From Corynebacterium auris (GTDB lineage: Bacteria > Actinomycetota > Actinomycetes > Mycobacteriales > Mycobacteriaceae): DNA of 64,000 bases. The stretch lies in the NCBI RefSeq assembly GCF_030408575.1, contig NZ_CP047047.1:1975274-2039273 (forward strand), given 5' to 3'. Position numbers and translations under genes: made by a program. The notes beneath the pieces are model-generated. The model searched no databases. It was not told where the DNA came from and was given only the letters and a program-made list of their open reading frames with translations. This document shows positions 52,063 to 59,646 of the stretch, in pieces (within the stretch, counting starts at the first letter, position 1; each line of letters begins with the position of its first letter).

Positions 52063-53187
52063 CTAGACGAGCTGCTTGCGGCCGAAGTGGAAGGCCGCCG
52101 CGCCGAGCACCACGGCGATGAGCAGGCCGATCAGCCCCTTGGCCACGCCGTTGACGCCGGTTTCGGCGCTGATCCCGCGCGCCTGCTCGGCGGTCGGGGT
52201 GACCTCGAGCGCCTGGCGCTGCACCTCGTTGCGGTTGCTGCTCAGCAGGTTCTCGGAGGAGGCGCGCTCCTCCGCGGTCGGCGTGGAACTAGTGCGCGCC
52301 GAGCTGGTGACGTAGGTGCGCCCGTCGTTGTTGAGGTAGTAGTAGATCCCGCCGAGGAGCAGGACGGCGGGCAAGGCGATGAGCGCGAGGCGCTCGATTT
52401 CAACGCTGGCCTCGACGCCGCCGCCGTTGGAGGAGCCGCCGACAACGTCGGAGGCGGCGCCGCCCAAGGTCTCGAAGCTGGAGCCGCCGCTGGCGGGCTG
52501 GCCCGTCCTGGCCTCGCGCTCGACGGAGTTTTCCACGTTGATGGAGGAGCCCGGCAGGCTGGAGCCCTGGGCGAGCACGACGTTGATGGGCAGGGAGCGG
52601 CCCAGCTGGCGCGCGAAGTCAAGGGTGAGCATGACGCCGGCCTGGCCCTCCGCGACGGTCTGGTTGATCAGGTCGCGCGAGTTGACCACGAAGTTGATGT
52701 CGCGGTTGTAGAACCACTGCTGGCCCTCGAGCTCTCCGGCGAGCCCGCCAACCGAGGCGAAGGGCAGCAGCTCGCGCGCGGCGTCGGCGGCGGCGCTGCT
52801 CCCGGCGCTGCTGCCCACCTGCTGGGAGCCGCTGTCCGGTGCCGCGTAGCCGGCCGCCTGAGCGAAGGCCTCGATGGTCATGACACCCTCGGTCAGCTCG
52901 GCCACGTCAGCGTTGACGTTCTCGCGGTTGTCCACGACGTGCTCGCCGTCCGCGTGGTAGTACCACTCCGCCCCCTCCAATGTGCCGGCCACCGCGCCGA
53001 CCTCCCACTGGTTCAGCGGGGGCAGGTTTTCGGCTTCCCCTGACCCGCCGGCGGCGCCGCTGCTGCCGGCGGCGGCGCTGCTTCCACTGCTGCCCACCGC
53101 GGATTCTGCGTGGGCGGCGGGGGCGACGTTGAGGGCCAGGGCGCCAGCGAGCGCCAGGGCGGGGACTGTCACGGCAATCTTCTTCAT
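52063..53187 (-). CDS. Surface protein with AETG-type C-terminal sorting signal (paralogue B)
   Basis: 374 residues. Sec signal peptide cleaved after AHA (residue 26); Ser/Gly/Ala low-complexity segments; an internal repeat pair (LEGAEWYYHADGEHVVDNRE and LEGQQWFYNRDINFVVNSRD) near 70 and 155; a hydrophobic helix (LALIALPAVLLLGGIYYYL) before a YYLNNDGRTYV motif; and a C-terminal GISAETGVNGVAKGL motif, hydrophobic stretch and GRKQLV tail. The tail has the layout of a sortase signal and is shared with the protein at 54208. A class F sortase gene lies between them. ATG 53187 is preceded by GGAGG. Function unknown; probably displayed on the envelope. Confidence 0.82.
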   Translation of the reverse strand: MKKIAVTVPALALAGALALNVAPAAHAESAVGSSGSSAAAGSSGAAGGSGEAENLPPLNQWEVGAVAGTLEGAEWYYHADGEHVVDNRENVNADVAELTEGVMTIEAFAQAAGYAAPDSGSQQVGSSAGSSAAADAARELLPFASVGGLAGELEGQQWFYNRDINFVVNSRDLINQTVAEGQAGVMLTLDFARQLGRSLPINVVLAQGSSLPGSSINVENSVEREARTGQPASGGSSFETLGGAASDVVGGSSNGGGVEASVEIERLALIALPAVLLLGGIYYYLNNDGRTYVTSSARTSSTPTAEERASSENLLSSNRNEVQRQALEVTPTAEQARGISAETGVNGVAKGLIGLLIAVVLGAAAFHFGRKQLV

Positions 53188-53346
53188 GGGAACCTCCAGG
53201 GCTGGTGTGGGCGCCCCCACCATGCATCAAGTCTCAAGTGAGGGTTTAGAGTCTACTTCACTGTAGCTTAGCGCCACATAAATCACACACGACACACGAG
53301 TCACATGCGTAACGCCCCCTTTTTGGGGGTGACAGGCATAGCAAAA

Positions 53347-53383
53347 CGCCCCTCGCCCCCGTGCTGCACGGGGGCGAGGGGCG
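53347..53383. terminator. Long perfect hairpin terminator
   Basis: CGCCCCTCGCCCCCGTG pairs perfectly with its complement over 17 bp around a CTG loop, with A runs on both sides. It lies downstream of the sortase gene and upstream of paralogue B, so it separates their transcription. Confidence 0.9.
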
Positions 53384-53405
53384 GAAAAAGCGCCGGTAGC
53401 GGGGA

Positions 53406-54176
53406 CTAATCGCCCATGTTCGCGGCGACCTGCTCGTCGCTGACAACGCGCTCGAAGCGCCAGCCCACCACGGCGTTGTGCACCGACTGCGCGAGGGGGT
53501 TGGCCGGCTGGACGCAGCTGATGGTCAGCAGGCGGCCGGGCGTTGCGCCCTCGCCCCAGATGGCGGAGTCCTCGGCCAGACCCTCCTTTTGCGGGGCGTG
53601 GAGGTCGGTGGCCACGTAGGTGAGCCAGTCGCCGCCGGAGGCTTCGGTGCGCACGTATAGGACATCGCCGACGGAGACGTTGTGGCGGTCCTTCTTGCCG
53701 TCGTAAAGCGAGTCGAAGACCGCGGAGATACCGGTGCCCGTATGCCCCGCGGTGACCACCACGTCCGGGGCGTTCGTGCCGGGTAGCGAGTAGGGGCGAT
53801 CGGGCGCGGTGTAGGCGCAGGCCTCTTTCAGGGTTGCGGGGTCGATCACGCCGTCGACGACGCGGCAGTCCTCCTCCTCGAAGGGGGCGCGCAGGCCGAT
53901 GGCGGGGATCGCGAGCTCGACGGGGCGACTCGGCGGGATGTCCGTCTTTGCGGGGGGCGCGATGGGGGCCGGGCGCGTCGGCGTGGGCGGCGGCGCGGGT
54001 GCGGGCTCTGCGGCTGAGGTAGCGGCCGCGGGCGCGGCCTCCTGCGGCGCCGAGCCCCCTCCCCCGCCGCAGGCGCGCGCGAGGAGCAACACGGCAAGCA
54101 GCACGAGGGCGAGGGCGCCGGCCCGGCGCGCCCAGAACACCCAGGGGGCGGGGCGCTGCGAATCAGACACGGGCAT
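53406..54176 (-). CDS. Class F sortase
   Basis: 256 residues. One N-terminal membrane anchor (residues 20-34), a long Pro/Ala-rich linker to about 80, then the sortase beta-barrel (VELAIPAIGLRAPF). The catalytic triad is visible as His 145 in VTAGHTGTG, Cys 221 in LLTISCVQP and Arg 240 in VVGWRFERV. Single-anchor sortases of this type are class F in actinobacteria; their substrates are mostly unknown. The gene follows paralogue A by 31 bp on the same strand and precedes paralogue B, both of which end in an AETG-type signal, so these are the obvious substrate candidates. Confidence 0.88.
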   Translation of the reverse strand: MPVSDSQRPAPWVFWARRAGALALVLLAVLLLARACGGGGGSAPQEAAPAAATSAAEPAPAPPPTPTRPAPIAPPAKTDIPPSRPVELAIPAIGLRAPFEEEDCRVVDGVIDPATLKEACAYTAPDRPYSLPGTNAPDVVVTAGHTGTGISAVFDSLYDGKKDRHNVSVGDVLYVRTEASGGDWLTYVATDLHAPQKEGLAEDSAIWGEGATPGRLLTISCVQPANPLAQSVHNAVVGWRFERVVSDEQVAANMGD

Positions 54177-54207
54177 AAACAGTACCGGGCCCCGGGGCCG
54201 CGAGGGG

Positions 54208-54909
54208 CTAAATCAGGCGGCGTCGCCCGTAGGCGAACACCGCGGCGCCGAGGGCGGAGGCGACGAGCAGGGCGGCGAGGCCCTGGGCCACGGCGTTGGA
54301 GCCGGTCTCGGCGCCGATGCCGCGGGGGGCGGGGTCGGCGGCGGCGTTGTGCGTCACCTGCACGTTGGGCGCTTCGGTGGCGGGGTCCTCCGCGCCGGCC
54401 TCTGCCTCGGCGATGCCCTGGCGCCCGGCCTCGGCGCCGTGCTGCGCGAGCAGCGCGTTCGAGGCCTCGATCTCCTCGGCGGTGGGTTCGGCGTCGATGC
54501 GCTCCATGTCCGCGACGTAGGTCTTGCCGTCCTTGTTCAGGTAGTACGTCGTGCCCTCGACTCTAAACACGGAGGGCAGGGCGATCAGGCCGTTGGCCAC
54601 CTGGTGCGGGGACTCGGGGTCGACGTCCCCCTTCGACAGCGGGGCCTCGGCCGGCTCCGACGGCTCCACCAGACCCGCCTCGGCCGCATCCTCGACGGCC
54701 ACGGACTTCTCGCGGGTGTCGCGGTCGAGCTGCTCGAAGGGGGTGCCCACGGAGTCCGGGTCAGGCACGTAGTGCGTGCCTTCCTCGTTGAGGTAGTAGG
54801 TCTCGCCGGTTTCGGCGGTCGCCTGGGCGGGCTGGGCGTGCGCGGCGGGGGCGGTGGCGATCGCCCCGACCAGGGTCGCTGCCGCGATGAACGTGCGGGT
54901 GCGCTTCAT
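54208..54909 (-). CDS. Surface protein with AETG-type C-terminal sorting signal (paralogue A)
   Basis: 233 residues. Sec signal peptide ending AHA (about residue 24). Two YYLN motifs (TYYLNEEGTHYVPDP near 39 and TYYLNKDGKTYVADM near 118), then PTAEEIEASNALL, shared with paralogue B in the order YYLNxDGxTYV, PTAEE, LL. The C terminus has GIGAETGSNAVAQGL, a hydrophobic helix and GRRRLI. I start at ATG 54909 where the signal peptide begins. It forms an operon with the sortase gene 31 bp downstream. Confidence 0.83.
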   Translation of the reverse strand: MKRTRTFIAAATLVGAIATAPAAHAQPAQATAETGETYYLNEEGTHYVPDPDSVGTPFEQLDRDTREKSVAVEDAAEAGLVEPSEPAEAPLSKGDVDPESPHQVANGLIALPSVFRVEGTTYYLNKDGKTYVADMERIDAEPTAEEIEASNALLAQHGAEAGRQGIAEAEAGAEDPATEAPNVQVTHNAAADPAPRGIGAETGSNAVAQGLAALLVASALGAAVFAYGRRRLI

Positions 54910-55863: not shown

Positions 55864-58800
55864 ATGTCTGACGTCGATAAGCTCCTTCGAAGCCACCTCG
55901 CACCGCCCCCGCGCACGCTTATCGACGTCCTCCAGGCCACCGCACAGGCCCACCCCGACGCGGCGGCCATCGACGACGGCGAGGTAATCACCTACGCCGA
56001 GCTCATCGAACGCGTCCGGGAGGTCGCGGCGGGGCTGCACCGCGCGGGCATGCGCCGCGGCGACCGCATCGGGGTGCGCATGACCTCGGGGACGCGCGAT
56101 CTCTACCTCGCCATCCTGGGCACGATGTGGGCCGGCTGCGCCTACGTGCCCGTCGACGCCGACGACCCCGACGAGCGCGCCGAGATCGTCTTCGGGCAGG
56201 CCGGAATCAACGGTATCTTCACCGACGAGGGCTTCCGCGCCCTCACCCCGCCCCACGCGGGCGACACCGAGCTGCCCGGCGTGGGCGACGACTGCTGGAT
56301 CATCTTCACCTCCGGCTCCACCGGCACCCCGAAGGGCGTGGCCGTCACCCACCGCAGCGCCGCCGCCTTCGTCGACGCCGAGGCCCGCCTGTTCTGCCGG
56401 GATGAGCCGCTCGGCCCCGAGGACCGGGTGCTCGCCGGCCTTTCCGTCGCCTTCGACGCCTCCTGCGAGGAGATGTGGCTGGCCTGGGGCCACGGCGCCT
56501 GCCTCGTGCCCGCGCCGCGCTCGCTGGTGCGCTCCGGGCAGGACCTGGGGCCGTGGCTGATCCGGCGCGACATCTCCGTGGTGTCCACGGTGCCCACGCT
56601 CGCCGGGCTGTGGCCGGCGGAGGCGCTGGACAACGTGCGCCTGCTCATCGTCGGCGGCGAGGCCTGCTCGCAGGAGCTCGTGGACCGCCTGGCCACCCCG
56701 GAGCGCGAGATGTGGAACACCTACGGGCCCACCGAGGCCACCGTGGTCGCCTCCGCCGCGCGGCTCTACCCCGGCGAGCCCGTCACCATCGGCTGGGCGC
56801 TCGACGGCTGGGACCTGGCAGTCGACGGCAGCGAGCTGGTCATCGGCGGTGTCGGCCTGGCCCGCTACCTCGACCCCGCCAAGGACGCCGAGAAGTACGC
56901 CCCGCTGGGCGACTGGGAGCGCGCCTACCGCACCGGCGACAATGTCCGCGTCACCGACACCGGCCTCGCCTTCATCGGCCGCGCCGACGACCAGGTGAAG
57001 ATCGGCGGGCGGCGCATCGAGCTCGGCGAAGTGGAGGCCAACGTGGCCTCGCTGCCCAGGGTGTACAACTCGGCCGTGGCCGTGCAGACCACCGGCGCCG
57101 GCGACAAGGTGCTCGTCGGCTACGTCAGCCTGGAGGACCCGGAGCGCGAATGGGACATCGCCGCCGCCCGCGAGCGCCTCGGCGAGCTCATGCCCGCCGC
57201 CCTCGTGCCGCGCCTGCACGTCATGGACGAGCTGCCGGTGCGCACCTCCGGCAAGGTGGACAAGAAGGCGCTGCCGTGGCCACTGCCCGCCGCAGCCGAG
57301 ATCGCCGGCATGACGCAGACGGAGGCCTGGCTGGCCGGGGTGTGGCTCGACGTGCTCGGCGCGCCGGTGGAATCGCGCGACGCGGACTTCTTCGCCCTCG
57401 GCGGCTCCTCGCTGGCCGCCGCCACCCTGGTGGCCCGGCTGCGCGAGCGCGTGCCCACCATCGCGGTGCGCGACCTCTACGACCACCCCCGCCTCGAGGC
57501 GCTGGCCGAATACATCGACTCCGTGGACACACAACCGGCGGCCCCGGCGCGCGAGCGCACCGTCGCCCCCGTCGGCGCGGGCACCCGCGCCGCGCAGACC
57601 CTCATCCAAGTGCCGGTGATGACCCTGCAGGCCGCCACCTACGTCACGTGGTGGGCGATCGCGGCCACGGCGCTCGGGCTGGTCCAGCTCGACTGGGTGG
57701 CGCTCGCCGTCGCCTTCGTGGTGCTGTGCACCCCGCTGGGGCGCCTGCACATCGGCGCGCTCGGCGCGCGGCTGATCCGCGGGCGCATCGCCCCGGGCGA
57801 GTACCCACGCGGCGGGCGCACCCACCTGCGGCTGTGGGCGGCGGAGCGGTGGATCCAGGCCTCCGGCGCGCTCAACATCTCCGGCTCGACGTGGGTGGCC
57901 TACATCGCGCGCCTGCTCGGCGCCACCGTCGGCCGGGGCGTGGACATGCACACGCTGCCGCCGACGACGGGCCTGCTCACCCTCGGCGCGGGCGCGGCGA
58001 TCGAGCAGGAAGTGGACCTCACCGGCTACTGGCTCGACGGCGACACCCTGCGGGTCGGCGAGGTCTCCATCGGCGCGGACGCGCGCGTCGGGGCGCGCTC
58101 GACGCTCATGCCGGGCACGCGCATCCACGCCGGGGCGCACGTGGAGGCCGGCTCGACGGTCACCGGCGACAAGGCCGTGAAGAAGGGCGCGCGCTGGGCG
58201 GGCTCGCCGGCGCGCAAGGTGGGCCGCTCCAAGCACCGCTTCCCGGACCACCGCCCGGCGCGGCGGCCCTGGTGGGTATGGACCTACGCGCTGACGGCGC
58301 TGGGCCTGGCCCTCATGCCCGTGGCCGCGGGCGCCCTCGGCATTGCCGCGGTGCTCGCGCTGGTCGCCGCGACCGGCGGGCACCCGGCCGTCGGCGCGCT
58401 GCTCTTCGCGCCCGTTGGAGGGGTGGTCTACCTCGGGGCGTCGATAGTGATGACGTGGCTGGGCGTGCGCGTGCTCTCGCGCGGCATCCACCCGGGGGTC
58501 GCGCCGGTGCGCTCGGCCCAGGGGTGGAAGCTGTGGACGGTCACACGCCTGCTTGACGACGCCCGCACCCGCCTGTTCCCCCTCTACGCCGGCGCGTTGA
58601 CCCCGGCGTGGCTGCGCTCGCTCGGCGCGCGGGTGGGCCGCGACGCCGAGATCTCCACCGCCGTCATGGTGCCTCGCCTGACCACCGTGAAGGACGGCGC
58701 CTTCCTCGCCGACGACACCCTCGTGGGCACCTACGAGCTCGGCCACGGCTGGGTGCGCACCGCCGAGACCACCGTGGGCAAGCGCGCCTTCGTAGGCAAC

Positions 58801-59646
58801 TCCGGCATCACCGGCCCGGGCCGCAAACTGGCCAAGAACTCCCTGGTGGCGGTGCTGTCGTCGACGCCGAAGAAGTCGAAGGCCGGCTCGAACTGGTGGG
58901 GCTCGCCGCCCGAGCGGATGCGCCGCGTCGAGGTCGAAACCGACGGCGGCGAGGCGCTGACGTACCGGCCGAGCGCGAGCGTGAAACGCAAGCGCGGCGT
59001 CGTGGAGACGATGCGCCTGCTCGCCCCCATGGGCCACGCCATGATCGTCGCGGCCTTCCTCGTCGGCGTGCACTACGCGCTGGTCCACCTCGCTTTCTGG
59101 GCGTACGCGCTCGGCGGCCTCATCTTCATGGCGTGCGGCGCCGCCGCCGTCGCCATGGCGTGCGTGGCCAAGTGGGTGTGCGTGGGCGCGCACCGGCCCG
59201 GCGATCACCCGCTCTACAGCTGGTTCGTCTGGCTCAACGAGCTCCAAGACCAGTTCATCGAGCTCGTCGCCGCCCCGTGGTTTTTCAACCACTCCTACGG
59301 CACCGGCGAGATGAACATGGCCCTGCGCACCCTCGGCGTCCGCGTCGGCCGCGGCGCGTGGATCGAGTCCTACTGGTTCCCCGAAACAGACCTGTGCAGC
59401 GTCGGTGCCGGCGCCAGCGTTGGCCCCGGCACCGTGGTGCAGACGCACCTGTTCCAGGACCGCGTGATGAGCCTGGACACCGTCACCATCGAGGCCGGGG
59501 CGACCCTCGCCGCCCACTCGGTCGCGCTGCCCGCCTCCACCATCGGCGAAGGCGCCAGCGTGCGCCCGGGCTCGCTGCTCATGCGCGGCGACCAGGTCCC
59601 CGCGGGCACGCAGTGGCAGGGCAACCCCATCGAGCCTGTGGGCTGA
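55864..59646 (+). CDS. Pls/PosA-type nonribosomal peptide synthetase
   Basis: 1260 residues. Adenylation domain (20-470) with A3 FTSGSTGTPKGVAVTHRS (148-165), A5 NTYGPTEATVV (285-295), A8 GRADDQVKIGGRRIELGEVE (372-391) and A10 Lys 464; carrier domain with LGGSSL (Ser 516); then about 700 residues of membrane segments and left-handed-beta-helix-like repeats, with no thioesterase. This order is that of Pls/PosA family synthetases, which make isopeptide homopolymers such as epsilon-poly-L-lysine. By hand alignment to GrsA the specificity residues are D-A-E-S-I-G-T-V-V-K; Glu in the third place fits a cationic amino acid, tentatively. The product is unknown. A MarR gene lies upstream and a potassium system downstream. 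Confidence 0.87.
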   Translation: MSDVDKLLRSHLAPPPRTLIDVLQATAQAHPDAAAIDDGEVITYAELIERVREVAAGLHRAGMRRGDRIGVRMTSGTRDLYLAILGTMWAGCAYVPVDADDPDERAEIVFGQAGINGIFTDEGFRALTPPHAGDTELPGVGDDCWIIFTSGSTGTPKGVAVTHRSAAAFVDAEARLFCRDEPLGPEDRVLAGLSVAFDASCEEMWLAWGHGACLVPAPRSLVRSGQDLGPWLIRRDISVVSTVPTLAGLWPAEALDNVRLLIVGGEACSQELVDRLATPEREMWNTYGPTEATVVASAARLYPGEPVTIGWALDGWDLAVDGSELVIGGVGLARYLDPAKDAEKYAPLGDWERAYRTGDNVRVTDTGLAFIGRADDQVKIGGRRIELGEVEANVASLPRVYNSAVAVQTTGAGDKVLVGYVSLEDPEREWDIAAARERLGELMPAALVPRLHVMDELPVRTSGKVDKKALPWPLPAAAEIAGMTQTEAWLAGVWLDVLGAPVESRDADFFALGGSSLAAATLVARLRERVPTIAVRDLYDHPRLEALAEYIDSVDTQPAAPARERTVAPVGAGTRAAQTLIQVPVMTLQAATYVTWWAIAATALGLVQLDWVALAVAFVVLCTPLGRLHIGALGARLIRGRIAPGEYPRGGRTHLRLWAAERWIQASGALNISGSTWVAYIARLLGATVGRGVDMHTLPPTTGLLTLGAGAAIEQEVDLTGYWLDGDTLRVGEVSIGADARVGARSTLMPGTRIHAGAHVEAGSTVTGDKAVKKGARWAGSPARKVGRSKHRFPDHRPARRPWWVWTYALTALGLALMPVAAGALGIAAVLALVAATGGHPAVGALLFAPVGGVVYLGASIVMTWLGVRVLSRGIHPGVAPVRSAQGWKLWTVTRLLDDARTRLFPLYAGALTPAWLRSLGARVGRDAEISTAVMVPRLTTVKDGAFLADDTLVGTYELGHGWVRTAETTVGKRAFVGNSGITGPGRKLAKNSLVAVLSSTPKKSKAGSNWWGSPPERMRRVEVETDGGEALTYRPSASVKRKRGVVETMRLLAPMGHAMIVAAFLVGVHYALVHLAFWAYALGGLIFMACGAAAVAMACVAKWVCVGAHRPGDHPLYSWFVWLNELQDQFIELVAAPWFFNHSYGTGEMNMALRTLGVRVGRGAWIESYWFPETDLCSVGAGASVGPGTVVQTHLFQDRVMSLDTVTIEAGATLAAHSVALPASTIGEGASVRPGSLLMRGDQVPAGTQWQGNPIEPVG

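Follow-up and report, generated by a model that had tools for sequence, protein, structure and literature searches.

What does a sortase act upon when its gene lies between two similar genes whose products end in the layout of a sorting signal, yet with a motif other than LPxTG? The question is raised by a cassette of Corynebacterium auris, found in a window of 64,000 nucleotides (contig NZ_CP047047.1, positions 1,975,274 to 2,039,273; coordinates below are those of the window). The cassette comprises three genes on the minus strand: gene B (54208..54909), encoding a putative sortase substrate of 233 residues; the sortase SRT (53406..54176), of 256 residues, at a spacing of 31 bp from B; and gene A (52063..53187), encoding a putative sortase substrate of 374 residues. 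A check of open reading frames (ORFs) bears out the initial annotation, which had described these genes as a sortase between two paralogues. SRT is likely, judged from sequence, to be a class F-related sortase confined to the genus, with the products of adjacent genes as its dedicated substrates; A and B are the proteins it would anchor to the cell wall.

The C-terminal signal of A and B

Protein B has a signal-peptide-like hydrophobic N-terminus, two YYLNxxGxxYV repeats and a C-terminal sorting block (54211-54324, minus strand). Protein A has a hydrophobic N-terminal segment, three related repeats and a block of the same kind (52066-52179, minus strand). Calls of signal peptides and membrane segments in both proteins are by hydropathy only. 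The two align at 43% identity over 126 residues (E 2e-18), and the common C-terminal half includes the YYLNxDGxTYV, PTAEE and AETG elements that had been noticed from the sequence. Within the blocks, matched by a hidden Markov model (HMM), stand the octapeptides RGIGAETG of B (residues 196-203; 54301..54324, minus strand) and RGISAETG of A (residues 337-344; 52156..52179, minus strand), each followed by a hydrophobic 19-mer and then by an Arg/Lys tail. Searched against the whole genome, the block HMM has just two hits at E ≤0.001, namely A and B, so the likeness of the two blocks is not due to chance. The features of a cell-wall sorting signal are all present: a C-terminal motif, a hydrophobic stretch, a basic tail and, by hydropathy, an N-terminal signal-like segment.

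The motif first described, (S/G)AETG, does occur in both proteins, but the unit conserved across the genus is longer, R-G-phi-x-A-x-T-G-x-N (phi, hydrophobic), followed by a hydrophobic stretch and Arg/Lys, and its P4 position is variable. Among 26 aligned homologues of B, residues R196, G197, A200, T202, G203, N205 and R229 are invariant. RGxxAxTG is found near the C-terminus in all 110 homologues of B that were gathered by overall similarity, with a query that contained the signal. Position P2 is mostly Glu, with Gln, Ala, Ser, Arg, Asn and Thr also seen, and P5 is almost always hydrophobic. P4 is Ala, Glu, Gly, Ser or Pro in the 110 homologues and never Leu. At the loci, 74 of 80 with an SRT ORF, the window included, have an ORF ending in R-G-x-x-x-x-T-G with a fitting tail, a few of the pattern matches being spurious; the strict form R-G-[ILMVA]-x-A-x-T-G with a hydrophobic stretch and basic tail occurs at 72 of the 80 fetched loci L034-L113. 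Both patterns had the R and the G built in. Leu at P4 appears in 13 of 98 locus pattern matches, a set that includes the few spurious ones. Since P4 Leu is dispensable and fixed residues lie further upstream, the signal is more than a single-residue variant of LPxTG or LAxTG.

Two labels suggested for the substrates were set aside. Likeness of the YYLN repeats to choline-binding repeats is not used as an indication of function, as it falls under the Pfam cut-off in the window; among the proteins tried, only the distant relative P0206 scores above that cut-off. The label PF26256, given to two homologues, was not reproduced when the search was repeated.

Co-occurrence of the signal with SRT

Matches were called strong at E ≤1e-25 for SRT and E ≤1e-8 for the block, thresholds set after the results from a first 201 genomes had been seen. 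With these thresholds fixed, 41 further genomes were searched, to give a total of 242 genomes of Corynebacterium. In the first set, SRT is strong in 80 genomes and the block in 77, all within those 80, with none in the other 121. In the further set, the block occurs in 24 of 28 genomes with SRT and 0 of 13 without. The full tally is 101 of 108 genomes with SRT having a strong block, against 0 of 134 lacking SRT. A block widespread without the sortase, the outcome that the initial annotation had named as refuting its reading, was sought in the genus and not found at strong threshold. The genes are linked as well: of the 96 strong blocks in the first 201 genomes, 93 share a contig with SRT at a distance of no more than 10.2 kb (90 of them within 5 kb), and the remaining three are on contigs other than that of SRT.

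Seven genomes match SRT and have no strong block, and six of these carry dead or broken copies. In G141 and G436, Gln replaces the catalytic His and Ala replaces the Cys. In G149 the frame reads on with no Cys in that strand, while in G415 the His is lost and the protein ends without the Cys strand. SRT is interrupted by stops in G153 and G421; in each the match stops at residue 212, short of the Cys, and the G421 protein as read ends without the Cys strand. Co-occurrence, linkage and the missing signal where SRT is dead together give strong support to the idea, put forward from the window alone, of a self-contained sorting system. Separately, a second copy without His, Cys and Asn is found in G114 (L070 6987-7748) beside an intact one, and may be a pseudo-sortase.

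Relatedness of the genomes was addressed with a gyrB tree of 80 author-chosen genomes, 48 with SRT and 32 without. The fewest changes in SRT presence on this tree number 13. Of nine supported pairs that are independent of one another, an average of 8.9 have the signal changing with SRT and 0.0 have it changing against SRT (p 0.004). Sortase distances correlate little with gyrB distances (r 0.11, 42 genomes). The pattern fits a cassette that is inherited or exchanged as a unit, and it may have moved between species. Among the named species with an SRT homologue are C. timonense, C. striatum, C. jeikeium and C. urealyticum, several of which live on people.

Residues, mechanism and alternative roles of SRT

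SRT consists of one N-terminal hydrophobic helix (modelled at 11-37), a proline-rich linker and a sortase domain at about 83-256. It shows the sortase fold, and structure comparison matched class A, C and E sortases, with no class F relative named; solved structures searched by sequence, with SRT itself or with its alignment as query, yielded no sortase. The active site had been described as an intact His/Cys/Arg triad, of which two members stand. A survey of 89 family ORFs from the first 201 genomes, a set apart from the 24 further SRT genomes carrying the block, shows His145 (codon 53742..53744, minus strand) conserved in 87 of 89 and Cys221 (53514..53516, minus strand) in 86 of 89. The third conserved residue is not Arg but Asn234 (53475..53477, minus strand; 86 of 89), which coincides with the Arg position of other classes or lies one residue away from it; position 233 is Arg in 66 of the 89 and His in the window, leaving no fixed Arg after the Cys. 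Cys104 and Cys120, whose span covers 53817..53867 (minus strand), are each present in 89 of 89 ORFs, and a disulfide between them is possible from the sequence.

The class F label likewise stands in part. Class F profiles (NCBIfam NF033748) can be aligned to SRT (profile comparison E 5.7e-5, probability 66), and the conserved Asn and the lack of a conserved Arg agree with it; on the other hand, none of 31 SRT family members passes the curated cut-off of NF033748, seven of 31 matching it at E ≤0.1 and the best at 4.7e-4. The class E model NF033747 touches one of the 31, at E 0.061. The Asn is present in 27 of 27 class F sequences, 25 of these at Cys+14, compared with mostly Cys+13, +12 or +11 in the SRT family.

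The fold, the conserved His, Cys and Asn, the shared signal, co-occurrence, linkage and the lack of the signal in genomes whose sortase is dead lead to the proposed relation of enzyme and substrates. By analogy with known sortases, A and B would be exported and held in the membrane through the C-terminal hydrophobic stretch. SRT, anchored by its N-terminal helix, would recognize R-G-phi-x-A-x-T-G. Cys221 would then attack the bond between Thr and Gly, the presumed cleavage site, with His145 assisting and Asn234 in or beside the position usually held by the Arg. The predicted acyl-enzyme would be handed to an amino group, most likely that of a peptidoglycan precursor, leaving A and B anchored to the wall.

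Several observations weigh against this reading. Pfam model PF04203 matches neither SRT nor five members of its family, and does match three other sortases of the window's genome. SRT scores 18.5 bits against the class F model, where the curated cut-off is 166 bits. Both automatic alignments place Asn234 and the Asn of class F in neighbouring columns, Asn234 coming first; the two are paired here despite the shift because the length of the loop after the Cys varies. Hydropathy gives A a third strongly hydrophobic stretch, residues 267-285, directly ahead of its last YYLN repeat, which, if it crosses the membrane, would place the signal of A on the wrong side; B has no equivalent peak. G437, with two SRT copies that both retain His, Cys and Asn and with no strong block in its genome, is a true exception to the pairing of sortase and signal, its locus having been read with 1.5 kb flanks; G105 retains the block though its SRT frame changes after the Cys. 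In G006, G071, G105, G420 and G425 the signal is found solely on a contig other than that of SRT or at a distance of over 6 kb, and extra RG-type blocks lie on other contigs in G130 (a strong match) and in G032 (weak, E 2.4e-7 and 9e-5). Of the 121 SRT-negative genomes, 11 (G079, G126 and nine others) show weak block matches, with E from 1.7e-5 to 6e-4. Finally, given gyrB, sortase distance correlates with signal distance at a partial r of 0.69 and with that of the substrate body at 0.65. With the body correlating about as well as the signal, the result points to co-inheritance of neighbours rather than to specificity, and the distance correlation was dropped as proof of specificity.

Two further observations concern these blocks. 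Some of the weak matches in SRT-negative genomes span positions 5-37 only. The RG-type blocks at L182 (G032:C2) and L179 (G130:C4), off the contig of the intact sortase, are possible remote substrates.

Of other roles for the cassette, polymerization of A and B by SRT into a pilus-like fibre, instead of or before anchoring, survives best, and is still unlikely. Several genomes have two substrates per sortase, and pilin-type genes adjoin the locus in L037, L055, L097 and L100; these nearby genes, however, end in LPxTG or LAxTG rather than the RG-type signal, and searches with curated domain models found no pilin domain in A or B, the nearest indication being a weak SpaA_3 match (E 0.049) in P0206. 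It is improbable that A and B are plain tail-anchored membrane proteins and that SRT acts on different substrates or lacks transpeptidase activity. Parts of PMC12445094 describe a precedent in ZnuF, a Corynebacterium wall protein with neither sortase motif nor sortase dependence, and the missing post-Cys Arg of SRT would count in the same direction if, as passages of PMC13257024 have it, all sortase classes use His-Cys-Arg. Sections of PMC6998099 nevertheless report Asn for Arg in actinobacterial class F, and plain tail-anchoring leaves unexplained both a motif conserved in every B homologue collected and its absence from all six genomes with a dead or broken SRT. Least probable of all is that the class E housekeeping sortase processes A and B while SRT has another nearby role: the window's genome does have a class E sortase and both signals contain the AxTG core, but among the 172 of 201 genomes that match the class E model at E ≤1e-10 (163 above cut-off) are 94 of the 121 SRT-negative genomes, none with a strong signal, and G113 and G175 have SRT and the signal with no class E match at E 1e-10.

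The proposed sorting by SRT supplies a specific class F-related enzyme together with two specific candidate substrates and a clearly defined signal, all within a small genome. The RG-type signal is an orthogonal candidate for protein-ligation work, and indicates surface proteins overlooked by searches for LPxTG or LAxTG.

Two other features lie within or close to the cassette. A terminator-like hairpin of 17 pairs followed by a T run (53347..53383, minus strand) stands after SRT and before A; it is a weak feature, two terminator-like sites being found in the region against 1.7 expected in shuffled sequence. A large ORF at 55864-59646 has, by eye, an adenylation-like start of nonribosomal peptide synthetase type and hexapeptide-like later parts, and a relative of it, also recognized by eye, adjoins the dead sortase of G149 (L174).

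Comparison with class F and other sorting systems

No paper on the Corynebacterium SRT family or on the RG-type signal was found in the literature searched, mainly non-subscription. For class F itself, function is termed unknown in passages of PMC13251363 and PMC6998099. Class F loci of other Actinomycetota were sampled as the best 80 of 582 relatives, not at random (L186-L265). A tail-anchored neighbour ORF with P-x-G-[GAS]-x-x-[TA]-G is found at 56 of these 80 loci, with 24 lacking it. Among 80 SRT loci only one shows this class F pattern, and none of the 80 class F loci shows the RG pattern. The class F neighbours differ in cargo, with an Ice_binding domain in L190 and DUF4397 in L245.

SRT resembles class F in its His and Cys, in a conserved Asn with no conserved Arg after the Cys, and in a neighbouring gene for a secreted, tail-anchored protein with a non-LPxTG signal. 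It differs in its extra Cys pair, in falling under the curated cut-off and in the signal itself, PxG[GA]xx[TA]GxG for class F as opposed to RG-phi-x-A-x-T-G-x-N for SRT. The class F-type signal is already curated, as GVDTG_CTERM (NCBIfam NF058571), which matches all eight class F neighbours tested at E ≤0.01, four of them above cut-off, and none of 26 Corynebacterium substrates. Run against three genomes, including that of the window, NF058571 gave no match, and controls in the same search also went without a match. A literature search on the word GVDTG returned no paper on sorting. The GVDTG domain and the RG signal are alike in a Gly upstream of (E/D/A)TG, a hydrophobic stretch and a basic tail. 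In another family of the order, tail-anchored genes with N-D-G-L-x-S-N-T-G are present at three of three loci (L270, L271 and L272), with a class F-like sortase bearing the Asn alongside in two; NDGLxSNTG is intermediate between the signal of class F and that of Corynebacterium.

In class A sortases, according to sections of PMC9520033, the Arg bonds to the P4 and P3 carbonyls. A wider reading, offered tentatively and somewhat more doubtful than not, is that in Actinomycetota the sortases of class F, and those derived from it, recognize substrates in a different manner from class A, with Asn for Arg, P4 Leu traded for a Gly one or two places upstream, and a neighbouring substrate of their own. 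The Gly is placed as GG or GA at P5-P4 in class F, as RG at P7-P6 with a hydrophobic P5 in Corynebacterium, and as DG-L-x-S-x-TG in the family of L270-L272. If this holds, class F would be mostly a one-enzyme, one-locus class of sortase. Di Girolamo 2019 is reportedly the source cited for LPXTG recognition by the class F sortase of C. acnes. That enzyme, in the account given in parts of PMC13257024, recognizes LPXTG like sortase A, which speaks against a single signal for the whole class, as do, against the wider reading, the 24 class F loci without such a neighbour. It carries the class F label, and the LPXTG reported for it differs from the signal of SRT.

Class E offers a second comparison: Streptomyces SrtE1, as described in passages of PMC5148588, is a class E sortase with an LAxTG signal. 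The class E and SRT systems share the A-x-T-G core and the fold, but P4 Leu is not conserved in SRT substrates, and class E has the Arg. The third comparison is with Actinoplanes missouriensis, where sections of PMC13251363 mention AMIS_11010 and AMIS_36440, with signal peptide, transmembrane segment and basic tail, as possible substrates of SrtF1 and SrtF4; in that account the candidates have no recognized pentapeptide, their role as substrates is a proposal, and a quadruple class F mutant is without phenotype. SrtF1 and SrtF4 resemble SRT in having a substrate candidate encoded next door.
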